Of a stretch of 64,000 nucleotides of DNA, positions 43,412 through 58,411 are shown piece by piece. Positions within the stretch are counted from its first letter, which is position 1. Every line of letters starts with the position of its first letter. The notes beneath the pieces were generated by a model. That model made no database searches. It saw only the letters and a program-made list of their open reading frames with translations, and was not told the origin of the DNA. Both the position numbers and the translations under genes were made by a program. The DNA comes from Flavobacterium sp. I-STPP5a (GTDB lineage: Bacteria; Bacteroidota; Bacteroidia; Flavobacteriales; Flavobacteriaceae), in assembly GCF_009764685.1 (NCBI RefSeq), contig NZ_VHLM01000010.1, positions 124,001 through 188,000 of the forward strand, written 5' to 3'.

Positions 43412-43631
43412 TTATTTTAGTGCAAAATTACGTTTTTTAGATGAAAGGATAAAAGAAGAAAGAAGAAAGACTTAGTATTAAAGCGATTAGTTTACGTATT
43501 CTGGTATTTGAAACTGTTGAATTTAGCTTATATTTGCAGATTAATTGTCGTAGATTAGTAATAGCGTGACATTTGAGATTAAGCGGAAGACAGCAAGTAG
43601 TTGTCAAGTATTTTAAAATAAACTGGTATTT

Positions 43632-43725
43632 GCGTGAGGGATAGTAGTGTAAAGCCCACAGTCTCGTTTTTTTTGACGAGACGAGGACTTGAAACGGATA
43701 GCCCGACCCTTGTGGTCACGCCCAA
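43632..43725. repeat. Modular intergenic repeat, copy D (GCGTGA/ACGCCCAA ends)
   Basis: The ends GCGTGAGGGATAG and GGTCACGCCCAA match copy B read in reverse. The inner block GGATAGCCCGACCC corresponds to GTACAGCCTGACCC in reversed copy B. A central stem GTCTCGT / ACGAGAC (43661-43682) encloses a T-run. The right end touches the -7 box of lepA. Confidence 0.75.
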
Positions 43726-43727
43726 AA

Positions 43728-43735
43728 TAAATTTG
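43728..43735 (+). promoter_or_regulatory. -7 box for lepA
   Basis: TAAATTTG matches TAnnTTTG and ends 13 bases before the lepA ATG. The usual -33 position falls inside repeat copy D. Confidence 0.55.
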
Positions 43736-43748
43736 ATATAAACGGAAA

Positions 43749-45545
43749 ATGAAACACATAAGGAATTTTTGCATTATTGCACATATTGATCACGGGAAAA
43801 GTACGCTTGCAGACCGTTTACTAGGTGCTACACAAACTGTAACTGCTCGTGAAGAAAAGGCGCAATTGCTTGACAATATGGACTTGGAGCGTGAACGTGG
43901 TATTACAATTAAAAGTCACGCAATTCAGATGGAGTACACCTACAAGGGTGAGGAATACATCTTGAATTTAATTGACACTCCGGGACACGTTGATTTTTCG
44001 TATGAAGTTTCTCGATCCATTGCGGCTTGCGAAGGTGCGCTTTTGATTGTGGATGCAGCGCAGAGTATTCAGGCACAAACGATCTCAAATTTATACCTAG
44101 CTTTAGAAAACGATTTGGAAATTATTCCGGTTTTAAACAAAGTAGATTTACCAAGTGCCAACCCTGAAGAGGTGAGCGATGATATTATTGATTTGTTGGG
44201 TTGCGACCTAGAGGATATTATTCACGCCTCTGGAAAAACTGGTTTTGGTGTCGAAAATATATTAGCAGCAATTATTGAAAAAATTCCTGCTCCAAAAGGA
44301 AATGTTGACGAGCCTTTGCAAGCTTTGATTTTTGACTCTCATTACAACCCGTTTAGAGGTATTGAGGTTATTTTTAGAGTAGTAAATGGAGAAATTAGAA
44401 AAGGGCAAAAAATTAAATTCATGGCTACTGGCAATGAATATTTTGCTGATGAAATAGGTACTTTGAAACTCAATCAAGTGCCAAAACAAGTGATTTCAGC
44501 AGGTGATGTTGGGTACTTAATTTCTGGAATTAAAGAGGCGAAAGAAGTAAAAGTAGGTGATACACTTACGGATGCAAAAACGCCAACAACAAATATGATT
44601 ACGGGTTTTGAGGATGTAAAACCAATGGTTTTTGCCGGTATTTACCCTGTTGATACAGAGGATTATGAAGATTTGCGTGCCTCGATGGAAAAACTACAAT
44701 TGAACGATGCTTCGCTTGTATTTTTGCCTGAGAGTTCAGCGGCTTTAGGTTTTGGTTTCCGATGTGGATTCTTAGGAATGCTACACATGGAAATTATCCA
44801 AGAACGATTGGAGCGAGAGTTTGACATGACTGTAATCACGACGGTTCCTAACGTTTCGTATTTGGCGTATACCAAAAAAGATCCGGAAACACCGTTTATC
44901 ATTAATAACCCATCTGATTTACCAGAACCTTCACGTTTAGACCGTGTAGAGGAGCCTTTTATCAAGGCAACTATCATCACTAAAGCTGATTTTGTGGGTA
45001 ACGTAATGAGTTTGTGTATTGAAAAACGTGGTGTCATTACCAATCAAACTTACTTGACAACAGAGCGTGTTGAATTGAACTTTGACATGCCACTAGCCGA
45101 GATTGTATTTGACTTTTACGATAGATTGAAAACGGTTTCTAAAGGGTATGCCTCATTTGACTACTCTCCAATAGGAATGCGTACATCGAAATTAGTTAGA
45201 CTTGATGTATTATTGAACTCGCAATCTGTAGATGCTTTGTCTGCGTTGATACACGAGAGTAATGCCTACAACATTGGTAAAAAAATGTGTGAGAAATTGC
45301 GCGAATTGATTCCGAGACAGCAATTTGACATTCCGATTCAAGCGGCCATTGGTGCTAAAATTATTGCGCGTGAAACGATCAAAGCATTGCGTAAAGACGT
45401 TACAGCAAAATGTTACGGAGGAGATATTTCTCGTAAACGTAAATTATTAGAAAAACAGAAAAAAGGTAAAAAGAGAATGCGATTGGTAGGGAATGTTGAA
45501 ATTCCTCAAGAAGCTTTCATGGCGGTGTTAAAGTTGAATGATTAA
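43749..45545 (+). CDS. lepA: Elongation factor 4 (LepA)
   Basis: The 598-residue ribosomal GTPase has the G1 loop [10 protein letters not shown] (about 10-19), G2 R-G-I-T-I-K, G3 D-T-P-G-H-V-D-F and G4 N-K-V-D. The C-terminal LepA-specific domain ends in [16 protein letters not shown]. It back-translocates or remodels stalled ribosomes. The last six codons (V-L-K-L-N-D) and stop recur at 52995-53013 beyond the dab block. No hairpin terminator follows lepA directly, which is unusual and fits the idea that something was inserted here. Confidence 0.96.
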
Positions 45546-45611
45546 AAATATAATTATACGCTTTTATTATTTTTTTTTAATAGTTTTGCTTGACGACTAC
45601 TTATTATTACA

Positions 45612-45980
45612 ATGATTAAAAAAATATTATTCCTACTCACAATTCTCACATACTTTGTATGTGGGAATTTTTCGTATGGAAATAATACACCGCAAGTCAG
45701 TACCAATTCTAAGAATTATAAAGTAGAGCACGCAAAATCTTATGGATTTTCTGCTCTAAATGAAATTGAAAATGATTTTGAATTTATCAATTTTGACATT
45801 GAAGAAGATGTTGAATTTGGTGATGATTTAGAAAAATGTTTCACTGGAGTTAGTTCTAATTTTGGTTTATTTTCATATTCCAAAAATCAAAAAATCTACA
45901 ATAAAACACTTTTTTGTATCCTACAAAAGAGTATTCCTTTATACGATCTTTTCTGCAACTGGAAGCTTAATTTAAGTTAA
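45612..45980 (+). CDS. Small exported protein, unknown
   Basis: The 122-residue product has a signal peptide (cleaved near residue 23, after S-Y-G), an acidic middle (E-I-E-N-D-F-E-F-I-N-F-D-I-E-E-D-V-E-F-G-D-D) and three cysteines. The short end I-P-L-Y-D-L-F-C-N-W-K-L reminds me of other small flavobacterial exported ORFs found before transport genes, without a known role. It lies 66 bases before dabA in the same direction and may be part of that unit. Confidence 0.55.
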   Translation: MIKKILFLLTILTYFVCGNFSYGNNTPQVSTNSKNYKVEHAKSYGFSALNEIENDFEFINFDIEEDVEFGDDLEKCFTGVSSNFGLFSYSKNQKIYNKTLFCILQKSIPLYDLFCNWKLNLS

Positions 45981-46046
45981 TATAACATTTATAACTGTTT
46001 GCTAAACAAGCAAATAAATATTGTTATTAACTTAATTTAGAATACA

Positions 46047-48539
46047 ATGAATTTAACTTCATTGCGATTTGTGGAAGAAGCAACTCTTCACAAACTTTCG
46101 CATTTTCTACCTGCACAAAATCCGTTGAAAGACTTTGTGCATCATAACACATTACATGCTTTTCAGGATAAAGATTTCTTTACTGCCTTACAAGAATCAT
46201 CTGAAATATTTGGTTACAAAACATTTTTACCTCTTTCTGATTTTAGAAATAAGTTAAAAAACAACCAAATAAATGAGGCAATTCTAGATAAAATTATTTA
46301 TCAGAAAAAAGGAGAAGATAACTTTTCATCTTGGAAAGAAAATGTTCTGCATAAAAATTACGACGAAGCCATTTATCCAAAAATTGGAAAACTTAGAAGT
46401 CTATGGAAAGAGAAATATGCCATAAACTTAGACAAATCTACTCACGGTATTCTTTTTAGAATCTTATGTAGTTATTTAGATCAAGGCATTTCTGTTTGGG
46501 CATTTCCTGTTCATCAAGACGGGTTTTTAGCTTCTATAAAAGAATTAGATAAAAATGGTGTTTTTAGTATTTTTTCAACGGCAAGAGTTAAGAAATTACT
46601 AGAAGAAGACACTTCCATTTATAAATTACTTCAAATTTTAGTTGGAGACGGTTTGTATTTTGAAAATTATCTCTTTGATCAACAATTTTCTCATCCTGGA
46701 TGGAGCGGTATGATTGCCACTTTAGAAAGCAATCCGACTTCACTTTTAGATGAAAGAAAAATAACTTTAAAAGAACTTATTACTTTCGAGTTACTTTTAG
46801 AGATTGATGCATTAGATAAAAAATTTGGTGAGAACTGGGAACCTCTAATTACCAAAATCACATTTGAAGCTGAAAATTTATTTTCTCAATCGGCTTACTC
46901 AGAATATTTTGAAGTGCTTTGCATTTGGCAAGAAGCTTTTGAATGGACCTTTTACAACCAAGCCTTAACAGGTTTACAACATAAAACAAGTGTAAAAACC
47001 TCAGGGGAAAGCACAAAATTTCAAGCTTTCTTTTGTATGGACGACAGAGAATGTTCATTGCGTAGACATATTGAAGCTTTAGAACCAAGTGTAAAAACTT
47101 TTGGCGTAGCGGCATTTTTTAATTTCGAATTTTTCTATCAACCTGTAAATGGAAAGTTCTTTACCAAATTATGTCCAGCACCTGTGACTCCAAAATTTTT
47201 AATTAAAGAATTACCGAGAAAAAAGAAAAGCGCTAAAGATTATCATTACCATAAGAAATCGCATTCTTTAGTATTTGGTTGGCTTATTTCTCAAACTTTA
47301 GGGTATACCTCAGCGTTTAAATTGTTTTTAAATATTTTTAAACCGAGCATGTCACCAGCCACTTCTTCTTCATTTAAACATTTGAATAAGAAATCGCAAT
47401 TAATTATTGAAAACACCAATCCAAAGGAAACTATTGGAGGTTTACAAGTTGGTTTTTCAGTGGAAGAAATGGCAAACAGAGTGGAAGGGATTTTAAAAAG
47501 TATTGGTTTAGTGGAAAACTTCGCACCTCTTGTGTATGTGGTTGGCCACGGCGCAACTAGCGTAAACAACACCCATTTTGCCGGTTACGATTGCGGTGCA
47601 TGTAGCGGAAGACCAAGTAGCGTAAACGCGAAAGTATTAAGCTTCGCTGCAAATCATGTAAAAGTTCGTGAAATTTTGGCTGAAAGAGGTATTTTAATTC
47701 CAAACGAAACGCAGTTTTTACCCGCTTTACATGATACCACTAGAGATGAAATTGTTTTTTACGATGAAGCATTACTTTCTGTAGTAAACGCTTTTTCACA
47801 TAAAGAAAACAGCAAAACATTCACAGACGCTTTAGCAAATAATGCCAAAGAACGCTCTAGACGATTTGATACAATTGATTCTAACCTTAGCATTTCAAAA
47901 GTGCATGAGAAAATAAAAAATCGTTCGGTTTCACTATTTGAACCTCGACCTGAATTAAATCACGCGACAAATGCCATGTGTATTGTGGGAAGAAGAAGTG
48001 TTTCGGATCATGTGTTTCTAGACAGACGTTCATTCATGAATTCTTTTGATTATGAAGTAGATCCAAAAGGCGATTATTTAGCTGGAATTTTAAATGCCGT
48101 AGCTCCTGTTGGTGGCGGAATTAATTTAGAATATTATTTTTCTAGAGTCGACAATCACAAACTTGGTGCGGGTTCCAAATTGCCTCATAATGTTATGGGA
48201 TTAATTGGAGTTGCCAATGGAATTGATGGCGATTTACGACCAGGTTTACCTAGTCAAATGATTGAAGTTCACGATCCATTACGATTATTAATTGTAGTAG
48301 AACATTTTCCTGAAATTGTAAAATATGCCATAACAAAATCTCCTGCAACTTACGAATGGTTTATCAATAATTGGGTGAACTTGGTTGCCTTGCATCCAGA
48401 AACTAAGGAACTATATCGTTTTGTGAATGGTGAATTTGAAATTTACCAACCCGTTGCATTTAACATTCAAACTATCGAAAATTCTTTGGAATATGCGATA
48501 ACGAGTTCGGAAAATTTAAACATAACGCTACTAAAATAA
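46047..48539 (+). CDS. dabA: DabA (DUF2309), inorganic-carbon transport subunit
   Basis: The 830-residue soluble subunit belongs to DUF2309. Four predicted zinc ligands are in place: C330 and D332 in F-F-C-M-D-D-R-E, H501 in V-V-G-H-G-A and C516 in Y-D-C-G-A-C. The spacing (C-x-D; H and C 15 apart) equals that of characterised DabA, where this beta-carbonic-anhydrase-like site hydrates CO2 in one direction. Together with DabB it takes up inorganic carbon, driven by a cation gradient. The dabB start follows one base after the stop. In a heterotroph the likely use is to feed carboxylases at low CO2. Confidence 0.92.
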   Translation: MNLTSLRFVEEATLHKLSHFLPAQNPLKDFVHHNTLHAFQDKDFFTALQESSEIFGYKTFLPLSDFRNKLKNNQINEAILDKIIYQKKGEDNFSSWKENVLHKNYDEAIYPKIGKLRSLWKEKYAINLDKSTHGILFRILCSYLDQGISVWAFPVHQDGFLASIKELDKNGVFSIFSTARVKKLLEEDTSIYKLLQILVGDGLYFENYLFDQQFSHPGWSGMIATLESNPTSLLDERKITLKELITFELLLEIDALDKKFGENWEPLITKITFEAENLFSQSAYSEYFEVLCIWQEAFEWTFYNQALTGLQHKTSVKTSGESTKFQAFFCMDDRECSLRRHIEALEPSVKTFGVAAFFNFEFFYQPVNGKFFTKLCPAPVTPKFLIKELPRKKKSAKDYHYHKKSHSLVFGWLISQTLGYTSAFKLFLNIFKPSMSPATSSSFKHLNKKSQLIIENTNPKETIGGLQVGFSVEEMANRVEGILKSIGLVENFAPLVYVVGHGATSVNNTHFAGYDCGACSGRPSSVNAKVLSFAANHVKVREILAERGILIPNETQFLPALHDTTRDEIVFYDEALLSVVNAFSHKENSKTFTDALANNAKERSRRFDTIDSNLSISKVHEKIKNRSVSLFEPRPELNHATNAMCIVGRRSVSDHVFLDRRSFMNSFDYEVDPKGDYLAGILNAVAPVGGGINLEYYFSRVDNHKLGAGSKLPHNVMGLIGVANGIDGDLRPGLPSQMIEVHDPLRLLIVVEHFPEIVKYAITKSPATYEWFINNWVNLVALHPETKELYRFVNGEFEIYQPVAFNIQTIENSLEYAITSSENLNITLLK

Positions 48540-48540
48540 G

Positions 48541-50412
48541 ATGATGACAAATGAATTTTTATTAGTATTTATCATTATTCCTATTGTAGGATTTTTGATT
48601 AGTTTCTTTATTCCAGAAAAGAAAGAATCTTGGTTATCTTGGACGGCATTTACAACGGTTTTTGTGCAGTTGTTAGTGTTGTGTGCTTTTATAATTTACT
48701 GGATAGCAAATGGCGCTAAAGACTTAAACCTATTCGAAGTATCGTTAGTCAAAACAAATGACTACGACTTCTTTATAGATTTTTATTTCGACAAAGTAAC
48801 CGCGGTGTATTTATTCATCGGTGCTTTATTAACCTCAATGATAACTACATATAGTCGCTATTATTTACATCGAGAAAAAGGATACAAACGTTTTTTTATC
48901 ACAGTTTTATTCTTCTTTTTTGGATATAATTTAGCCATTTTATCAGGAAATTTTGAAACCTTATTTATCGGTTGGGAAATTATTGGAATTTCATCATTCT
49001 TACTAATTGGTTTTTACAGAGAACGTTATTTGCCTGTGAAAAATGCTTTCCGAGTATTCTCAATCTATAGAATTGGAGATGTTGGAATTATTTTAGCGAT
49101 GTGGGCTAGTCATCATTTGTTTCATGAAAACATCACTTTTATCCGACTACACAATTACGAATTGGTCAACGAACATTTGCAAAATCACACCTTAATTGGA
49201 TCGTTCATTGCCTTATGTTTGGCATGTGCGGCTGCAGTAAAATCAGCTCAAGTTCCCTTTTCTTCTTGGTTACCAAGAGCAATGGAAGGTCCTACGCCAT
49301 CAAGTGCTATTTTTTACGGTTCACTTTCGGTGCATTTAGGTGCTTTTTTAATGTTACGAACCATGCCTTTTTGGGAACACCAAACTTCAATGCGAATTGC
49401 TATTGGCGTAATGGGATTCACCACAAGTATCATTACCACATTAATAGCAAGAGTACAATCCTCCGTAAAAAGTCAAATTGCCTATAGTTCGATTTCTCAA
49501 ATTGGATTGATATTTATTGAAATTGCTTTAGGATTCGAAACATTAGCTTTATTTCATATCACTGGAAATGCGTTTTTAAGAACTTATCAATTATTGGTTT
49601 CACCATCTGTGGTAAGTTATTTAATCCGAGAACAATTTTACAATTTCGTACCTAAACAAGTAAGCAAAAGCATCCTTCCTAAAAAATTAGAAAATGCTTT
49701 ATATGTTTTAAGTATCAACGAATTTCACTTGGAAAAAATAATTAGAATTTTCCTTTGGAATCCTTTGAATACAATTGGTAACAAATTAAATTTCTTAAAC
49801 CTAAGAAAATTATTCTTCTTGTTTTTAAGCACGTATTTAGCCGGAAGCATCACTTTGTATTACAAGAATTCAATTCCAAGTTACGTGACTAATTATTTAC
49901 CTGAAGTTTTCGCTGCAATTGGATTGGTATTTGTTTTCAAAGCCTTTTCAGAAAGAAAAAGTCCGTTTGTAGCTTGGTTACTAATTGTTTTTAATCATTT
50001 CTGGATTGTGTTAGCCATTTTGTTTAACGAAAAAGTAAGCTATTATGAAATATCCCTTTATATCACAGGAATTGTAATTGCGGGAATTATTGGTTACATC
50101 GCTTTATTGAAATTAAAAACAATGGAAAAGAGAATTTTATTAAGTCAACATTCTGGACACGTTTATGAACATCCAAAATTTGCTTTCTTTTTCTTATTAG
50201 CAGCACTTGGCGTTACAGGTTTTCCAATTACTTCCACTTTTATTGGCGAAGATTTATTGTTTAGCCATATTGAAAGTCACCAAGTAGTTTTAGCATTTTT
50301 AGTGGCAAGTAGTTTTGTGGTTTCTGGAATAGCTGGCGTTAGAATTTACACCAGACTTTTCTTGGGAACACACATTAAAACCTATCACGAATTACCTTAT
50401 AAATCATCATAA
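48541..50412 (+). CDS. dabB: DabB, NuoL-like ion-conducting subunit
   Basis: The 623-residue protein has about 14 or more membrane helices and the proton-antiporter-M domain of the NuoL/MrpA family: S-R-Y-Y-L-H-R-E near 105, F-I-G-W-E-I-I-G-I-S-S-F-L-L-I-G-F, and a lysine helix K-S-A-Q-V-P-F-S-S-W-L-P-R-A-M-E-G-P-T-P. It lies directly after dabA, which fixes its identity as the DAB partner rather than a Complex I subunit; no other nuo or mrp genes are near. The order dabA-dabB is opposite to the order I recall from chemoautotrophs. Confidence 0.9.
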   Translation: MMTNEFLLVFIIIPIVGFLISFFIPEKKESWLSWTAFTTVFVQLLVLCAFIIYWIANGAKDLNLFEVSLVKTNDYDFFIDFYFDKVTAVYLFIGALLTSMITTYSRYYLHREKGYKRFFITVLFFFFGYNLAILSGNFETLFIGWEIIGISSFLLIGFYRERYLPVKNAFRVFSIYRIGDVGIILAMWASHHLFHENITFIRLHNYELVNEHLQNHTLIGSFIALCLACAAAVKSAQVPFSSWLPRAMEGPTPSSAIFYGSLSVHLGAFLMLRTMPFWEHQTSMRIAIGVMGFTTSIITTLIARVQSSVKSQIAYSSISQIGLIFIEIALGFETLALFHITGNAFLRTYQLLVSPSVVSYLIREQFYNFVPKQVSKSILPKKLENALYVLSINEFHLEKIIRIFLWNPLNTIGNKLNFLNLRKLFFLFLSTYLAGSITLYYKNSIPSYVTNYLPEVFAAIGLVFVFKAFSERKSPFVAWLLIVFNHFWIVLAILFNEKVSYYEISLYITGIVIAGIIGYIALLKLKTMEKRILLSQHSGHVYEHPKFAFFFLLAALGVTGFPITSTFIGEDLLFSHIESHQVVLAFLVASSFVVSGIAGVRIYTRLFLGTHIKTYHELPYKSS

Positions 50413-50476
50413 GAAGAAATAAGATTATAGACTTTTCGTAAATATTTAAATTATTAATAAAAACACATTCATTTAT

Positions 50477-52084
50477 ATGAACTCAAAAATAAAAAAATTC
50501 ATCCCTGCAGACGGAATTGCGGGATTAAAAGAAAATTTCTCATCAGATGCCATATCTGGTTTTATCGTATTTTTATTAGCGCTTCCTTTAAGTTTAGGAA
50601 TTGCCAAAGCATCAGAATTTCCACCAATTATGGGATTAATTACTGCCATTATTGGTGGTTTATTAGTCAGTTTAATTTCTGGTTCACGATTAACCATAAA
50701 AGGCCCAGCAGCTGGATTAATTGTAATTGTTGCCGGTGCTGTTGCTGAATTTGGAAAAGGCGATCCAATTTTAGGTTGGAAATTAGCCTTAGGCGCAATG
50801 GTTATTGCAGGTTTAGTTCAAATTTTATTTGGTGTTTTAAAATTGGGAAAACTTGCCGATTTCTTTCCGCTTTCAGCCATTCATGGTATGTTAGCCGCCA
50901 TTGGAATTATTATTATTGCCAAACAAATTCCAGTATTATTAAACGATAATCCTACACTTGCAAAAGGAAAAGGTCCGTTGGAATTACTAGCTAATATTCC
51001 GAATTTCATTATGAATTTAGACTATAAAGCGACTATTATTGGTGTGGTGAGTTTAGCTATTATGTTAGGTTGGCCATACATCAAAAACAAGTATATCAAA
51101 ATGTTTCCAGCACCACTTGTAGTTTTATTATTTGCTATTCCTGCCGAATTATACATGGATTTCGCACACACTGAACCTACTTATTCTTTGGTAAAAATTG
51201 GAAATTTAGTAGATAATATTAATTTCAATGCTAGTTTTGCTGGTATTTCACAAACAGGAACTTTTATCAAATTCGTCATTATGTTTGCTTTGGTTGGAAC
51301 GCTTGAAAGTTTATTAACCGTAAAAGCTATTGACTTAACGGATCCTTTCAAAAGAAAATCGGACGCTAATAAAGATTTAATTGCGGTTGGAATTGGAAAT
51401 GTTTTTGCTGCATTTTTAGGTGGTTTGCCAATGATTGCAGAAGTAGCTCGTAGCTCATCCAATGTGAACAATGGCGGGAAAACACGTTGGGCAAACTTCT
51501 TTCATGGTTTTTTCATTTTAGCATTTTTATTAGTCGCTTCTCCTTTATTAGAAATGATTCCGAATGCCGCATTAGCAGCGATGTTAGTTACGGTTGGAAT
51601 AAAATTAGCACATCCAAAAGAATTCATTCATACCTTTGAAATTGGAAAAGAACAATTAGCCATATTTTTAGTGACTATTTTCTTTACTTTGTTTGAAGAT
51701 TTATTAGTGGGTATTGCTGCAGGTATGGTTTTAAACATGATTATTCACTTATTACACGGAACTCCAATTTCATCATTTTTTAAAGCGCCAACTGAGGTCT
51801 CTTTCGAAGGAAATGAGTATTTAGTTACGATTAGCAAAGCGGCAATTTTCACTAATTTCTTAGGAATTAAAAGAAAATTAGAAGAAATCCCATACGGATT
51901 TAATGTTACCATCGACTTGAAAAATACTAAGCTTGTTGACAATTCTGTTATGGAAAACTTAGAACATTTTGTTCATGATTATGAATCGAATGGAGGAAAA
52001 ATAACCATTGTAGGATTAGAAAACCATACGGCTTTCTCGGCTCATCCAAAATCTTCAAGAAAAAATTTAAATTTTATAAATTAA
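50477..52084 (+). CDS. SulP-family anion (probable bicarbonate) transporter
   Basis: The 535-residue product has the SulP membrane domain with about 12-14 helices, beginning S-G-F-I-V-F-L-L-A-L-P-L-S-L-G-I-A and including I-S-G-S-R-L-T-I-K-G-P-A-A-G-L, and a short C-terminal STAS-like segment (about 455-520). SulP proteins carry sulfate or bicarbonate, and the placement 64 bases after dabB makes a Na+-coupled bicarbonate carrier of the BicA type likely. This assignment is from context only. Confidence 0.85.
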   Translation: MNSKIKKFIPADGIAGLKENFSSDAISGFIVFLLALPLSLGIAKASEFPPIMGLITAIIGGLLVSLISGSRLTIKGPAAGLIVIVAGAVAEFGKGDPILGWKLALGAMVIAGLVQILFGVLKLGKLADFFPLSAIHGMLAAIGIIIIAKQIPVLLNDNPTLAKGKGPLELLANIPNFIMNLDYKATIIGVVSLAIMLGWPYIKNKYIKMFPAPLVVLLFAIPAELYMDFAHTEPTYSLVKIGNLVDNINFNASFAGISQTGTFIKFVIMFALVGTLESLLTVKAIDLTDPFKRKSDANKDLIAVGIGNVFAAFLGGLPMIAEVARSSSNVNNGGKTRWANFFHGFFILAFLLVASPLLEMIPNAALAAMLVTVGIKLAHPKEFIHTFEIGKEQLAIFLVTIFFTLFEDLLVGIAAGMVLNMIIHLLHGTPISSFFKAPTEVSFEGNEYLVTISKAAIFTNFLGIKRKLEEIPYGFNVTIDLKNTKLVDNSVMENLEHFVHDYESNGGKITIVGLENHTAFSAHPKSSRKNLNFIN

Positions 52085-52087
52085 CAA

Positions 52088-52846
52088 ATGAAAAAATATA
52101 GTAATTTCTTAGTAGCTCTCGTTGGGCTAATAGGAATTCTGTTGCCAAATAGTTCAAACGCACAAGTAAAAACAAGTAATAACGATGTTTGGTTTCATTA
52201 TGTTGGAAAAAACATGTTAAGCCAAAAGTTATCGTTTACACTAGAAGCCACTATGCGATATGCCAACGGAGTTTCAGAAAAACAACAATATTTTGTGAGA
52301 CCCTCTTTTGATTATCAGTTTTCTAAAAAATTCAATGGTAGCATTGGTTACTCGCATTACAGCACGTATGTATATGGAAGTCCGGCTTTAAACAAAACAG
52401 ACATTCCTGAAGATCATGTTTGGATTCAAGGAACTTTTGTTCACTCGAATGGGAAATTTAAATTCACGCATCGTTTAAGAGATGAAAATAGGTTTGTTGG
52501 AATTGCAGTAAAAAATGGTACAGAATATTCCATTGATCATTACGATTATAGAAACAGATTGCGATATATGTTCTTGATGAATTATACTTTAACTAAGAAA
52601 GAGGACAAAGTAAAATTATTCGGGATTCTAGGCGATGAAGCTTTTTTCAATATTGGTTCCAATGCTGGAAAAACGTTCTTCAATCAAAATAGAATTATTG
52701 GAGGTTTAGGCTATAATATTGATAAAAACCAACAAATTCAACTGAGCTATATCCATCAGAACATTTGGAATTACACGAATACGTTACAAGAAAGTAATCC
52801 AACCGTTAGAATATCCTACATCACTAACATTAGTTTGTTTAAATAA
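52088..52846 (+). CDS. DUF2490-family outer-membrane protein
   Basis: The 252-residue product has a signal peptide (cleaved near residue 25, after S-N-A) and strands typical of DUF2490: V-W-F-H-Y-V-G-K-N, L-E-A-T-M-R-Y, F-V-R-P-S-F-D-Y-Q-F and F-T-H-R-L-R-D-E-N-R-F. It is probably a small outer-membrane beta barrel. It begins three bases after the sulP stop, so it is co-transcribed with it. It may form a pore for anions or have a structural role; nothing in the sequence decides this. Confidence 0.8.
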   Translation: MKKYSNFLVALVGLIGILLPNSSNAQVKTSNNDVWFHYVGKNMLSQKLSFTLEATMRYANGVSEKQQYFVRPSFDYQFSKKFNGSIGYSHYSTYVYGSPALNKTDIPEDHVWIQGTFVHSNGKFKFTHRLRDENRFVGIAVKNGTEYSIDHYDYRNRLRYMFLMNYTLTKKEDKVKLFGILGDEAFFNIGSNAGKTFFNQNRIIGGLGYNIDKNQQIQLSYIHQNIWNYTNTLQESNPTVRISYITNISLFK

Positions 52847-52991
52847 ATTTATACTTTGAAAGAAGTAGTGTTTTGATCAAATAAGAGATCTATATTTCAC
52901 ATTCCTATTATACAAAAATGATGGAACACCTTTGACCAAAACCTTTTGTAAGTTATAAATTAGCGCTAGTAGATGAAGTTGTATTTATAAG

Positions 52992-53013
52992 GGTGTTGAA
53001 ATTGAATGATTAA
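52992..53013 (+). pseudogene. Displaced copy of the lepA 3' end
   Basis: These 22 bases match 45524-45545, the end of lepA, at 20 of 22 positions. In the lepA frame both encode V-L-K-L-N-D-stop, and both differences are synonymous. Upstream, only weak similarity to lepA is left. It lies 146 bases after the last gene of the dab block. Confidence 0.55.
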
Positions 53014-53058
53014 TCTTGTTTTTAGAAAATAGAATAAAGAACAAAAAATATAGAGAAG

Positions 53059-53089
53059 ACCTGATGATGTAAAAATTGTCAGGTTTTTT
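53059..53089 (+). terminator. Terminator after the lepA remnant
   Basis: ACCTGA pairs with TCAGGT across a 14-base loop, followed by six T. This could be the terminator that once followed lepA. Confidence 0.6.
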
Positions 53090-53405
53090 CTGTTTATTTT
53101 TGGCAGAGTAATTATTTTAAATTATGGAGATCATAGATGATTTTGAGTTACAACAAGCAGTTTTATTGGCAAAGAAATAAAAATAACAACTATAAACTTT
53201 TATTGCATTAATTCAGTTGAAGACATTCCAAGTTTAACATTCATCAGTAGTGTTTTTTAATGGTCTGGTAGAAATATAAGATTTAAAACGAACAAAATTT
53301 TAAGCTGGTTTGTTTTTTATTTTTGGCAAAATAGTTATCGCCTCTAGCATCTATGAAATGATTCAGTCCTTTAGAAAATTTAAAGCATAGATGATTTGAA
53401 TCTTG
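53082..53405. repeat. Two degenerate copies of a promoter-like module
   Basis: The block GG-TTT...TATTTTTGGCA occurs at 53082-53105 and again at 53307-53328, each followed by CATAGATGATTT (53132 and 53386). Each carries a perfect TAnnTTTG box. The first is followed by an 18-codon ORF (53124-53180, MEIIDDFELQQAVLLAKK) of doubtful reality. No gene is otherwise present in 52847-53752. Confidence 0.4.
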
Positions 53406-53434
53406 TTTTCACAAACATTCGATGAGTTCAATTG

Positions 53435-53454
53435 CCTTTGGCTTTAGCCAAAGG
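53435..53454. repeat. Short palindrome CCTTTGGCT-TT-AGCCAAAGG
   Basis: A 9 bp perfect stem with a 2-base loop. A shorter relative, TTGGCT-AA-AGCCAA, lies at 53502-53515. They look like members of one palindromic repeat type and lie just before the tandem array near pfkB. Confidence 0.7.
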
Positions 53455-53528
53455 TAAAATAGAGATTTTTTTCTGGCTTTAAACCAATTAGCACAATCCC
53501 TTTGGCTAAAGCCAATCAATAATTGAAT

Positions 53529-53765
53529 CTAAAACCGTTGACTGAAGTCAACGGCAATTGATACTATTTTCTCTTTAATTTAAAACCTATTTGTTCTGCA
53601 AAAACATTATCTAAAACCGTTGACTGAAGTCAACGGCAATTGATACTATTTTCTCTTTAATTTAAAACCTATTTGTTCTGCAAAAACATTAAACCTAAAA
53701 CCCTTGACTAAAGTCAACGGCAAGTGATACTATTTTCTCTGGACTGTAAAACCTATTTGTTCTGA
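53529..53765. repeat. Tandem 82-84 bp repeat made from the pfkB 3' end and hairpin
   Basis: Three units start at 53529, 53611 and about 53695. Each holds the palindrome CCGTTGACT-GA-AGTCAACGG (53535-53554, 53617-53636, variant 53701-53720) and then the sequence that, in unit 3, contains the pfkB stop codon and last codons. Units 1 and 2 are almost identical; unit 3 has several substitutions. The palindrome can end transcription from pfkB on the minus strand. Confidence 0.85.
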
Positions 53766-54685
53766 AACAGCTCCAATAATCGCATCACATCTTCTACTTT
53801 AAATAATTGAGTTCCTTCGTTCATAGTTGCTGCAGAACCACAAGCAACTCCCCACTGAATAACTTCTTTTAAAGTTTTGTTTTGAGACAATGCCCACACC
53901 ATGCCACCTACCATACTATCACCAGCTCCTACGGTGCTTTTCTTTTCTACTTTTGGCGCCTGAACAAAATGAGTTTCGTCTTGAGTGACTAAAATGGCTC
54001 CATCAGCTCCTAGTGAAACTACTATAATTTCAGCACTTTTATTTACTATTAATTGTTTAGCCGCTTTTTCAACCTCTGGTAATTCTAATCGATCTACACC
54101 AATTAATTTTGCTAATTCGCCAATGTTGGGCTTAATCAAGTAGACTCCTGTTTCTAACACTTTTTCCAGCGGTTCACCAGATGTATCTACAATAACTTTG
54201 ATGTTAGAAGCTTTTGCTATTTGGGCTATTCTTTGGTAAAAATCAGTTGCTAATCCTTCATTTAAGCTTCCGCTAATGACAAGATAATCTGTTTTTAAAT
54301 CTTTTACTTTTTGCAAAATTTCATCTTGTTCAGCTGGAGATAACTCATTTCCGGGAAAACCAAAACGGTATTGCGATTGTGTTTCGGAATCAAAAGCAAT
54401 AAAATTTTCTCGTGTCCAGCTTTTCGTTCTTATCAATTCAAGTTGCAAACCTTCTTTTGTAATTAATTCTTCGAGCAATTCGCCGGAAGAACCACCAGAA
54501 GTAAAAATGCATTTGGACGCACCTCCTAATTTTGCAATGGCTTTAGATACATTTATACCGCCACCACCAGCGTCATAGCGCGGTTTTCCGCATCTAATTT
54601 TTTGCTCAGCGATAAGTCCAGTAAAATGAGTCGATTTATCTAAGGAAGGGTTTATGGTTAGTGTTACAATGGGTTTCATTTTCAT
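53753..54685 (-). CDS. pfkB: 6-phosphofructokinase, PfkB type
   Basis: The 310-residue ribokinase-family enzyme closely resembles E. coli Pfk-2 over its full length: T-L-T-I-N-P-S-L-D at the start, G-G-G-G-I-N-V-S-K-A-I at 40-50, Y-R-F-G-F-P-G, V-D-T-S-G-E and the catalytic G-A-G-D256-S-M-V-G-G. It phosphorylates fructose-6-phosphate (or possibly fructose-1-phosphate or tagatose-6-phosphate). It is transcribed alone on the minus strand; its stop codon lies within the last unit of the 82-84 bp tandem repeat. Confidence 0.9.
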   Translation of the reverse strand: MKMKPIVTLTINPSLDKSTHFTGLIAEQKIRCGKPRYDAGGGGINVSKAIAKLGGASKCIFTSGGSSGELLEELITKEGLQLELIRTKSWTRENFIAFDSETQSQYRFGFPGNELSPAEQDEILQKVKDLKTDYLVISGSLNEGLATDFYQRIAQIAKASNIKVIVDTSGEPLEKVLETGVYLIKPNIGELAKLIGVDRLELPEVEKAAKQLIVNKSAEIIVVSLGADGAILVTQDETHFVQAPKVEKKSTVGAGDSMVGGMVWALSQNKTLKEVIQWGVACGSAATMNEGTQLFKVEDVMRLLELFQNK

Positions 54686-54725: not shown

Positions 54726-54765
54726 AAAAAGAAAGCGAAATCTAAATAGACTTCGCTTTCTTTTT
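54726..54765 (-). terminator. Terminator of the ABC/M1 operon
   Basis: A 14 bp perfect stem (AAAAAGAAAGCGAA at 54726-54739 with its complement at 54752-54765) overlaps the stop codon of the permease-peptidase gene and gives a U-run on the minus strand. Confidence 0.88.
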
Positions 54766-57700
54766 ACAATTTCCTTCTATTATCATCAGAATTTGCATCG
54801 ATCAACTTATTGTAAGGGTCAACGCCAACTTCTGTTGGTTTTTCGTTCACCATCAACACCACTTTATTATCAATAGTATTAATTTTTAATTTTTTTAGAT
54901 ACAATTCTTTATCTGTTTTTTTTCCTTTAATGGTTTGCTCCGAAAAAATTCCAATTTCTACATAGTCTTGTAAAGGAAACGATTCTGTAGGATACTTGTC
55001 ACCTTTCCTAGTGAACTTTAATGTTTTTCCTTTAGGATCTTTGAAGATTCTTTTTCCTTCCTCGTCAGCTTTATACTTTGAAACTTCAAACTGAATCGTA
55101 ACTTGAAATTTGCCATTAGGCATTTTTTTAGAAGTCACATTACTAATTCTGTTATCGTATAAAGTTATTGTCTCAAACATATCATTAATAACATATTGTA
55201 ACGAATCTGGAGTTGCTTTTTTAAATTCGTTTACCAATTCTATTGAGTTGGTATAGGGAGCATCTTGAAAAGCTACCTTACTTATATAACTCTTTAAGGT
55301 ATTGTTCATTTTCTGTTCTCCAATATAATCACTTAAGGCATACAATACCAATGATCCTTTCTCATAATGAATGTATTGTTGGTTTTCGTTAAACATTAAA
55401 GGCTGTTCTTTTTTGCTTTCAAAAGTTCGTTGTTTCAAATATTTATCTAGTGCATCTTTTAGAAACCGTCGCATTTTAGATTTTCCATACGTATGCTCTA
55501 AAACTTTTAATGAACTGTATTCTGACAAACTCTCAGAGAGTAATGTTACCCCTTGAACATTGCCACCTATAACTTGGTGAGCCCACCACTGATGCGCTAC
55601 CTCGTGTGATGTAACTGCAAAAGGATAATCAACAGCGTCTTGATTGTCGTCATTTACATCAGCTATAAAACCTATGGCTTCAGAGTAAGGGATCGTATTA
55701 GCAAATGATTGTGCAAATTGACCTTGTGTTTTAGGATATTCAATAATTCGAACTTGTTTGTGCTGGTACGGACTGAAATTTTTAGTATAATACTCTAGGG
55801 ATTTCTTTACACCTGCAATCATTCGATTTAAGTTGTATTCGTGTCCTTTGTGGTAATATATTTCAATGTTTACATTTTTCCATTTGTCTCGTTTAACCTC
55901 ATATCGAGCAGAGTTAAAAGCATAGAAATTAAGCATTTTTTTATCCATTTTATAATGGAAATAATTTCGTCCGTTTTTCTGCCATTTCTTTTTTAAATAC
56001 CCAGGTGCTATAGCTGTTTGATCTCCAGAGGTACTTACTGTGGTTTCAAATGTTAACCAATCCGCATCAGAACTGATGTAAGTGTTTTTCCTAGCAATAC
56101 TATCTGTTGGTTTAGCCATTCGATCTTTTGGTTTCAGCCCGTATTTTTTTCGAACATCATCATCTATCAATTCACTTTTAGCTGAATATCCTAAAGAAGG
56201 AAAAATTTCCTCATTAATAAACGTTCCATTATATAAAACGGGAGAGTTATTTTTAAAGAAAGTATTTGGCTTGTTCTTAATAACAAAACTCATTTGGATA
56301 GAATCACCAGGTTGCAACGCTTGCTCTAATTTATAGATGTTAAAATTATAAAGTGTATCCTTAGAAACCAGCTTGTTTTTGACATTGAAACTAACTTGGG
56401 TTCCTTCTTTATAATCTACAAAAATGGAGTCAATTACTTGGGTTGATTTATTTTTTAAAATGTATTTCCCATTAGCAACAAAATTGCGTTCCTCTGGAAA
56501 CAAATCCATATCAATTTTAATATCTGTAATTCTTGGTTGAATTTTGTTCTCGAACTTTTTGTATTTCTTTTCCCAATTTACAATTTCTACCTCCTGTTCG
56601 TTTCCGCTTTTATTTTCGTTTAAAATATTATCTTGATAATACAACGCTCCACCAATTCCTAAAAAAACGAATGTTGCCGCTACCAGTAGCAATGCAATTT
56701 GCTTTGTAAATCTGATTTTAAAATCAGACCAACGACCCTTAAAAGATTGTACCGTACCTCTAGTCCAAAAAAGCAATGCTAAACCAAAGAAAATAATTCC
56801 AAGTGCTAACCAATATATTTTATAGAGAAAATAAGATGACAATCTGTGACCATAACCATTCATATCAGAAAAACTATAACCCGTATCACTATTAAACTGA
56901 TAAATTAGTTGCTCAACCCCTATTGCCGGCAGAAAACTTAATCCGATGTAAAAAAGTAAAAGGATAAAGAATCCTAACAAATAGTTTTTAACTAATGTTT
57001 GAATAAGAACTGCCATTAATGCCCAAATTATATATTCGATCCATTTTAAGGCATACAATTCAAATAGATAATGACCTATTTCAAAATTAAAATAACCTTT
57101 ATACACCTGAAACAAAATCCCCGAAAACATAATTACTAAAAGTAACACCATTTGCATTTTGACAATGGCCATAAACTTTGACAAAAGTAAAACCCAGTTA
57201 GGAGTAGGAGTTACATCTATTAAATGAAACATTCTAGTGGTAGTAGCACGATGAATTAAAATCCCAGAAAAAAGAAAGGTTAAAATATTGATAAACAACC
57301 CAAAAGTACTTCCAGGAATTTCGAGCATTTGCCATGTAACCGGATAGGTTTCTGTTCCAAAAAATGCACCCGAAGATAAAGCTGTAATTAAAATAAAAAG
57401 CATTCCCACAAGCACTATGCTGATAAATATCCAGTTTTTCACAATAAATTTAAAATCTACTTGAGATAAACTCCATGCTGTTTTCAAATTTTGTTTGGTT
57501 GAATAATCATACCCTACTTTAGGCAAGTTGATTTTAGTGATTCCACCAAAATTGTTCTTTGTAATACGCTCATTATCTTTACTTTTTCTTAATGTTAATG
57601 CTGTTTGAGTAAATGAAAAATAACGGTACATAAGACCTAGAATTACCATAGAAACAGTCAACCAAATTGCCCTATTGTAAATAATAGCTCCCTTAAAAGG

Positions 57701-58411
57701 TAGTAAATTTTCATTTTTCTCGTAAACAGTCCAATACTTTGTATAATAACTTAAAGCTTCACTACCAAAAGGATCAAAAAGCGCAACCAAAAATCGATTC
57801 TCATTTTCTTTTGTAAAACTACTTACAATACCTTGCACAAATAAAAGTAGTAAGACAGTAATGAAACCAACCGAAATATTACGGGTAATTGTTACTACTG
57901 AAAAAACAATTACACCAAAAAACGCCAAATTAGGGATTACAAATATCAAATAACTTTGCAAATAGGCCATAAAACTATGCGGACCCAATAACTGTGGATT
58001 TACTCCTGGTAAAAATGAAGCTAAAAAAGCACCTAAACCAACGCAAAGGGTGATTAAAATAACAACTAATAAGGAACTGAAAAACTTACTCATTAAGTAA
58101 TCCCATTTGCTAAATGGATACGAAAACAAGATAGAATGCATGTTATATTTAAAATCACGATAAACGGACGCACCTATAATGGAGGGCAATAAAAAATAAA
58201 TGAAAACTGACAATGCGTTTAACATATTGTTTAATGCTATAGGCGAATTTGCCATAGCGTTAGAGGCCGTAGTAGTTTTAAAACTATCAAAAATTCCAAG
58301 ACTACTAGCCATCATTAACATAGAAAATGCCATGAAAATTCCGGCGTATATATAAAAAGTTGGATTTTTTAGCCACCTTTTTAATTCAAAAGTAAATAAG
58401 GTTCCAAACAT
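54764..58411 (-). CDS. ABC-2 permease fused to an M1-family metallopeptidase
   Basis: The 1215-residue product joins two parts. Residues 1 to about 590 form an ABC-2-type permease with about 12 membrane helices in two sets. Residues about 640-1110 form an M1 aminopeptidase-like domain with H936-E-V-A-H940 followed by a glutamate at 960 (L-S-E), close to the HExxH-x18-E zinc motif. The peptidase part is probably on the outer face of the inner membrane. Such fusions are widespread in Bacteroidota and are paired with an ATPase, as here; substrate unknown. It begins one base after the stop of the ATPase gene. Confidence 0.88.
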   Translation of the reverse strand: MFGTLFTFELKRWLKNPTFYIYAGIFMAFSMLMMASSLGIFDSFKTTTASNAMANSPIALNNMLNALSVFIYFLLPSIIGASVYRDFKYNMHSILFSYPFSKWDYLMSKFFSSLLVVILITLCVGLGAFLASFLPGVNPQLLGPHSFMAYLQSYLIFVIPNLAFFGVIVFSVVTITRNISVGFITVLLLLFVQGIVSSFTKENENRFLVALFDPFGSEALSYYTKYWTVYEKNENLLPFKGAIIYNRAIWLTVSMVILGLMYRYFSFTQTALTLRKSKDNERITKNNFGGITKINLPKVGYDYSTKQNLKTAWSLSQVDFKFIVKNWIFISIVLVGMLFILITALSSGAFFGTETYPVTWQMLEIPGSTFGLFINILTFLFSGILIHRATTTRMFHLIDVTPTPNWVLLLSKFMAIVKMQMVLLLVIMFSGILFQVYKGYFNFEIGHYLFELYALKWIEYIIWALMAVLIQTLVKNYLLGFFILLLFYIGLSFLPAIGVEQLIYQFNSDTGYSFSDMNGYGHRLSSYFLYKIYWLALGIIFFGLALLFWTRGTVQSFKGRWSDFKIRFTKQIALLLVAATFVFLGIGGALYYQDNILNENKSGNEQEVEIVNWEKKYKKFENKIQPRITDIKIDMDLFPEERNFVANGKYILKNKSTQVIDSIFVDYKEGTQVSFNVKNKLVSKDTLYNFNIYKLEQALQPGDSIQMSFVIKNKPNTFFKNNSPVLYNGTFINEEIFPSLGYSAKSELIDDDVRKKYGLKPKDRMAKPTDSIARKNTYISSDADWLTFETTVSTSGDQTAIAPGYLKKKWQKNGRNYFHYKMDKKMLNFYAFNSARYEVKRDKWKNVNIEIYYHKGHEYNLNRMIAGVKKSLEYYTKNFSPYQHKQVRIIEYPKTQGQFAQSFANTIPYSEAIGFIADVNDDNQDAVDYPFAVTSHEVAHQWWAHQVIGGNVQGVTLLSESLSEYSSLKVLEHTYGKSKMRRFLKDALDKYLKQRTFESKKEQPLMFNENQQYIHYEKGSLVLYALSDYIGEQKMNNTLKSYISKVAFQDAPYTNSIELVNEFKKATPDSLQYVINDMFETITLYDNRISNVTSKKMPNGKFQVTIQFEVSKYKADEEGKRIFKDPKGKTLKFTRKGDKYPTESFPLQDYVEIGIFSEQTIKGKKTDKELYLKKLKINTIDNKVVLMVNEKPTEVGVDPYNKLIDANSDDNRRKL

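Follow-up and report, generated by a model that had tools for sequence, protein, structure and literature searches.

Predicted inorganic-carbon uptake genes between lepA and its terminator in a Flavobacterium genome, at a locus that joins an occupied and an empty allele

The window analyzed in this work is a stretch of 64,000 nucleotides from Flavobacterium sp. I-STPP5a (contig NZ_VHLM01000010.1, positions 124,001 to 188,000), in which a block of five genes, encoding a small protein, DabA, DabB, a SulP-family transporter and a DUF2490 protein, follows the elongation factor gene lepA, and a second copy of the last 22 bp of lepA stands on the far side of the block. Comparison with members of the same genus gives good support to a placement of the block downstream of the lepA stop codon and ahead of the terminator of that gene. 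The locus is hybrid: its left part is that of relatives carrying the block (the occupied allele), and its right part is that of a lepA locus without it (the empty allele). We consider it probable that the two alleles were joined by homology-facilitated illegitimate recombination after the block had arrived at lepA. Coordinates are collected in Table 1; genomes of the comparison set are denoted by G numbers, the window genome being G000.

Results and discussion

A displaced lepA end followed by the lepA terminator

The in-place end of lepA, GGTGTTAAAGTTGAATGATTAA, and the displaced copy, GGTGTTGAAATTGAATGATTAA, differ at two positions, both synonymous, and both encode V-L-K-L-N-D-stop, exactly as described in the first-pass annotation of this DNA. 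A degenerate pattern for this peptide and stop codon matches nowhere else in the 64 kb, and in 0 of 100 shuffles. Across all 3.67 Mb of the genome, the 22-mer with its two variable bases allowed has two exact matches, namely these two, and two more with three mismatches, so the accidental match elsewhere that had been named as a possible refutation was not found; the reversed 22-mer used as a control has no match in the same genome. As a bare repeat the pair is only moderately unusual: it is 91% identical, and other direct repeats of 18-30 bp in the same 8.5 kb reach 73-90% (several, among the 20 of 26 families listed). The identification of the displaced end is nevertheless secure, because a lepA-specific terminator stands behind the copy.

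This terminator, a hairpin with a T run, folds at -20 kcal/mol (53053-53094, z -7.1), whereas the 66 bp directly behind lepA fold like shuffled sequence (z -0.2), which bears out the earlier observation that no terminator directly follows lepA, with the reservation that a terminator-like hairpin lies about 95 bp behind lepA (45641-45669), within the orf122 frame at its start region. The T run of that hairpin is broken in G233, G393 and G303, as read from the alignment. The terminator core CCTGATGATGTAAAAATTGTCAGG occurs in 10 of the 121 genomes used for terminator counts (at most one mismatch, one match each). It lies 45-114 bp behind lepA in nine of them, and 7.5 kb away only in the window genome; since all nine other genomes have it behind lepA, it is identified as lepA's own. 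Another lepA terminator allele, ACCCAATAACGAAAGTTGTTGGGT (at most one mismatch), was found in 13 of the 121 genomes, all of which have a match at a distance of 28-51 bp from the end of lepA (G099 has one extra match 759 bp further on), and a terminator of this type stands behind the block in G233, G393 and G303. Thus, in all four known occupied genomes the block lies between lepA and a lepA-type terminator, in agreement with the proposed insertion at the lepA 3' end.

That the repeat is accidental and the hairpin behind it unrelated to lepA is so improbable as to be negligible. Such short repeats are indeed present in this AT-rich stretch, but the exact 22-mer matches contrast with an empty control, and the terminator is linked to lepA in every other genome that has it. 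In addition, the remnant of a 3' gene end behind the window terminator recurs 0.1-1.5 kb behind lepA in several genomes (reading frames of the gene remnants were compared by eye). A rough scan for terminators, which scored 98 of 159 distinct lepA ends as followed by one and 61 as lacking one, was not used as evidence, because it missed known terminators (G044, L039) and did not list the window among the ends without one, the latter probably owing to the hairpin inside orf122.

Empty and occupied sites in related genomes

Homology and DabA searches covered 398 genomes. By the last 400 bp of lepA, the closest are G233 (97%), G393 (95%), G129 (95%) and G029 (94%), the next best reaching 87%; the lepA locus of Flavobacterium collinsii (97%) is among the nearest named ones. 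The site is empty in G129 and G029, where lepA is followed by a terminator and pfkB, and also in G048. In G233 and G393 the block is present with the same left junction as in the window, and behind the shared block end (window 52990) come about 70 bp with a terminator and then pfkB. The more distant G303 (83% lepA identity) has lepA, the block, the same terminator as G233 and G393 and then thiL, and a single 9 kb alignment with the window spans the left junction; a pfkB remnant in G303 was judged by eye. The left end of the block can be aligned to G233 and G393 and, less closely, to G303. The right end has matches solely in G000 and G233 among the 299 genomes searched; the stretch is also present in G393, which was presumably not drawn into that sample.

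To the right of the seam the resemblance is to empty sites. The best non-self matches of 52985-53776 among the 398 genomes are lepA 3' flanks, those of G168 (92%), G260 (90%), G005 (89%) and G094 (88%), and 52992-53094 is 88-92% identical to the flanks of these four genomes. The earlier expectation that genomes lacking dab would join lepA directly to sequence like that from 53014 onward is therefore borne out, albeit with the best matches in species whose lepA is only 82-84% identical to that of the window (G168 83.2%, G260 81.9%, G094 83.9%) and with the flank of the nearest empty relative, G129, 72-73% alike. At the join itself (52990/52992) the stretch shared by the two sides comprises, by eye, at most about 5 bases (TTTAT before the join, also present in many lepA genes).

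The displaced end is private to the window genome and is not a general scar of block insertion, because the occupied G233, G393 and G303 are without one. In the 9 kb downstream of lepA, the best 22-mers of these genomes have 8, 8 and 6 mismatches, respectively, to their own lepA ends, and local alignment detects no decayed lepA end before their terminators (p 0.84, 0.996 and 0.88); for the window itself, taken as the positive control, 0 of 2000 shuffles reach the score. The first-pass annotation had suggested looking for different cargo at this site. Of the distinct lepA ends followed by 5 kb or more of sequence (93 including that of the window, part of them from other genera), the 92 others all lack a second end at up to three mismatches; larger islands would have escaped this comparison. 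The displaced end as the scar of the primary insertion was thus ruled out as the general case, and it reflects a separate event, probably a later one, on the right of the block.

Origin of the hybrid locus

In the scenario that we favor, the five-gene block would have reached the gap between the lepA stop codon and the terminator, probably once, in a Flavobacterium lineage, and would then have spread between species by recombination. The locus up to about 52990 represents the occupied allele as in G233 and G393, and the part from 52992 into pfkB the right half of an empty allele, comprising 22 bp of lepA, the terminator, gene remnants, repeats and the pfkB end. The two alleles would have been joined where no homology is seen, with one side of the incoming DNA pairing homologously and the other being joined illegitimately. 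One possibility is that an occupied chromosome received empty-type DNA anchored in pfkB, the other that an empty chromosome received occupied-type DNA anchored in lepA. A weak mosaic in pfkB would favor the first direction: at the sites where G233 and G393 agree against G129, the window is G129-like at 4 of 5 left of position 53950 and at 5 of 35 right of it (the best-scoring cut, after omission of two sites where a third base occurs; Fisher 0.006, reached over all cuts by 14 of 500 permutations), which weakly supports a crossover near 53950.

A precedent for this mechanism is homology-facilitated illegitimate recombination as presented in the available part of PMC3240628, where likewise one foreign end is joined without homology and the other probably within homologous genes, and no recombinase gene is needed; the window differs in showing a historical seam in a single genome, with an anchor (pfkB or lepA) that we infer. 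In the available text of PMC5361080, a similar mechanism is proposed by the authors for the type VI secretion system displacement arrays of Vibrio cholerae, in which a new module enters and the old downstream part is left as an orphan. In the window, the cargo is instead a transport operon and the orphan is the terminator of a housekeeping gene together with the last 22 bp of that gene.

The gene end of lepA may itself have arrived with the block, as suggested by its divergence. Compared with G129, the terminal 22 bp of the gene show 6, 7 and 6 differences in G000, G233 and G393, respectively, a divergence reached in only 11, 7 and 10 of 1776 lepA windows; against G029 there are 5, 6 and 5 differences, reached in 45, 35 and 43 windows, a weaker contrast.

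Several observations weigh against the proposed joining of two alleles. Over its 22 positions, the displaced end has 5 differences from the lepA end of G129 and 4 from that of G029, and the empty allele is therefore not simply theirs but a different one. Other cuts in pfkB give p 0.06-0.46, and pfkB identities are mixed for all relatives. A replaced lepA end fits recombination with donor DNA and an integrative element equally, and the hybrid is present in one genome only, thus in one assembly.

According to the principal alternative, a recombinase integrated the block, or a larger element, site-specifically at the lepA 3' end; the element brought its own gene end, the old end became the displaced copy, the copy was later lost in G233, G393 and G303, and the integrase was lost everywhere. 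A restored gene end with cargo between it and a displaced fragment is the classic signature of integrase islands in the available part of PMC4383910, and the lepA ends of G000, G233 and G393 are unusually unlike that of G129, as if carried in with the block. However, the islands described there differ in that an integrase accompanies them and the target is a tRNA gene, whereas the target here is a protein gene, and the displaced fragment is present in one of the four occupied genomes, without a trace in the other three. A Pfam scan of the five open reading frames (ORFs) of the block revealed no integrase or recombinase, as previously noted, and the next genes are lepA and pfkB. The 92 other lepA ends lack a second end, the displaced end is unlike that of the nearest empty kin, and ordinary recombination with a donor likewise replaces the lepA end. 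We regard this alternative as rather unlikely. Of the two routes considered in the first-pass annotation, recombination with foreign DNA accordingly fits the comparison, and an element that restores the gene end fits it less well. It is quite improbable that a recombinase encoded elsewhere acts in trans on a recombination site at the lepA 3' end, with the dab block as a passive cassette lacking an integrase that is exchanged there and the 22-bp repeat as an attachment core that is intact in the window.

If two alleles were joined in this way, no integrase is needed to produce a displaced gene end. Such an end alone is therefore no proof of an integrative element, and several occupied relatives provide a better test.

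Movement of the dab block

DabA proteins of this kind (E up to 1e-100) are encoded in 37 of the 398 genomes, and lepA is directly upstream of the dab block in 4 of the 32 loci checked (from 32 of the 37 genomes). For 20 loci wider flanks were compared: groEL is in range in 9, groEL and/or a cluster of a TonB receptor and a small metal-binding-like protein in 14, 4 are behind lepA and 2 elsewhere. These flank families were named from one example, the small metal-binding-like protein has no Pfam match, and some stretches end at contig ends. The genes that we call groEL, groES, TonB receptor, thiL (AIR-synthase-like) and dusC (encoding a Dus protein) are presumably these, by family matches and the usual gene names; the names of lepA, pfkB and the block genes were taken from Pfam and NCBIfam scans.

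The block of G313 is 92.7% identical over 45880-52827, yet it lies beside groEL, and the lepA of G313 is on another contig. Synonymous divergence (dS) was calculated by NG86, in which values above about 1 approach saturation. For the pair G000 and G313 it is 0.24 for dabA, 0.24 for dabB and 0.34 for sulP, versus 2.0 for lepA, which points to horizontal transfer of the dab genes. Between G000 and G303, it is 0.68 for dabA, 0.78 for sulP and 1.23 for dabB, versus 1.65 for lepA. The dS values for some pfkB, DUF2490 and thiL pairs were left out.

Vertical inheritance would place the block behind lepA already in the last ancestor shared by G303 and the G000 group, with losses in G129, G029 and many others and with the displaced end as a separate local accident. 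The block of G303 at the same place, the alignment across the left junction and the by-eye pfkB remnant are in line with it. However, many losses would be needed given the occurrence of DabA in 37 of the 398 genomes and of the block at lepA in 4 of 32 loci, and the dab genes and sulP have lower G000-G303 dS than lepA, a comparison that is only indicative so near saturation. Descent of this kind is, in our estimate, unlikely.

Known mobile vehicles were not matched closely. All 123 matching plasmid records are below 60% identity (25-28% among the eight matches listed), and the one matching phage record has 30.5% identity over 56% of the protein, so that plasmids and phages were rejected as carriers of these dab genes. 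In G313, a partial tyrosine-recombinase-like ORF (L249:10229-10951; E 2.8e-5, below the Pfam cut-off) lies about 0.4 kb away from the dab block beside groEL, and tblastn gave no relative of it in the other loci compared.

Gene content and predicted function of the block

The gene assignments of the first-pass annotation agree with the family matches in Table 1; the small protein has no Pfam or NCBIfam match above cut-off and appears to be exported, judging by eye from its hydrophobic start. In related loci the protein preceding dabA has 106-130 aa, again with a hydrophobic start, and 16 of 18 aligned copies share the signature PLYxLxCxW[KR], with a looser form in G116 and G161. Two more of the 20 dab loci (G313 and G387) have a relative at the same place. 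We regard this protein as a candidate accessory component of Dab in these genomes.

In DabA, C330, H501 and C516 align with the zinc ligands of DabA2 (9rd0), and D332/R334 with its Asp-Arg pair, residues that are named in the available text of PMC13144422. The locus resembles the DAB/DAC inorganic-carbon uptake complex described there in having DabA with the zinc ligands and, directly beside it, a NuoL/Mrp-type DabB of the Proton_antipo family, and it differs in that these genes are clustered with sulP, a DUF2490 gene and a small protein of no named family. The SulP protein matches the BicA model at E 6.1e-44, far below the cut-off of the model. From the protein families, the block is predicted to take up CO2/bicarbonate through a Dab system, supplemented by a SulP transporter, and to supply carboxylases in what is presumably a heterotroph; Dab homologues occur in heterotrophs according to PMC13144422, as far as the available text goes.

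The block is an example of a mobile metabolic operon placed between a housekeeping gene and the terminator of that gene, where it may be transcribed by read-through from lepA. Literature searches on dabA/dabB transfer in Bacteroidetes, lepA as an integration site, Flavobacterium transformation and SulP or bicarbonate in Flavobacterium retrieved nothing on this locus among the records listed; for Flavobacterium transformation no paper was listed.

Other features of the locus

Table 1. Features of the lepA-pfkB region (window positions)
Feature	Positions	Strand	Evidence
lepA (translation elongation factor 4), left border of the block	43749..45545	+	NCBIfam TIGR01393 E 8e-292; Pfam LepA_C
In-place lepA 3' end, 22 bp, V-L-K-L-N-D-stop	45524..45545	+	
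Left end of the block, between lepA and orf122	45546..45611	+	folding, alignment
orf122, small protein preceding dabA	45612..45980	+	C-terminal signature PLYxLxCxW[KR]; 18 loci aligned
dabA, zinc-binding subunit of inorganic-carbon uptake complex	46047..48539	+	PF10070 E 2.1e-212
dabB, membrane subunit, NuoL/Mrp-like	48541..50412	+	PF00361, PF00662 (Proton_antipo_M/N)
sulP, SulP-family anion (probably bicarbonate) transporter	50477..52084	+	PF00916 E 1.2e-66
DUF2490 protein gene	52088..52846	+	PF10677 E 1.5e-42
Right end of the block, non-coding	52847..52990	+	match in G233; also present in G393
Seam: left side like occupied G233/G393, right side lepA 3' end	52991..52992	.	
Displaced lepA 3' end, 22 bp	52992..53013	+	
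Intrinsic terminator, lepA-type, 7.5 kb away from lepA	53050..53093	+	
Likely remnant, 5' end of the gene following lepA elsewhere	53124..53180	+	by-eye comparison with G068, G320
Remnant of 3' gene end (...YEMIQSFRKFKA-stop), recurring 0.1-1.5 kb behind lepA in other genomes	53299..53390	+	
Three tandem 82-bp copies (spacing 82 and 84), palindrome GTTGACTGAAGTCAAC	53527..53774	+	
pfkB (hexose kinase), right border; 3' end tending towards empty G129	53753..54685	-	PF00294

The last of the three tandem repeats extends into the 3' end of pfkB, whose last codons are unlike those of relatives. Between pfkB and thiL, the genomes G000, G233 and G393 have a gene of 1215 aa (54764-58411 in the window; ABC-type membrane part plus peptidase M1 domain) with 97-98% DNA identity among them. 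It was not found in the examined stretches of G129, G029 and G048 and may represent a second insertion shared by these three genomes. On the other side, dusC lies about 340 bp upstream of lepA in the window (43412-43748) and about 4-6.5 kb upstream in G233, G393, G129 and G029, so that a stretch is either missing in the window genome or gained in these four. Finally, a public record titled as a Bifidobacterium breve metagenome-assembled genome (L087) contains a Flavobacterium-type lepA with 95% protein identity, followed by pfkB and thiL, and is probably mislabelled.

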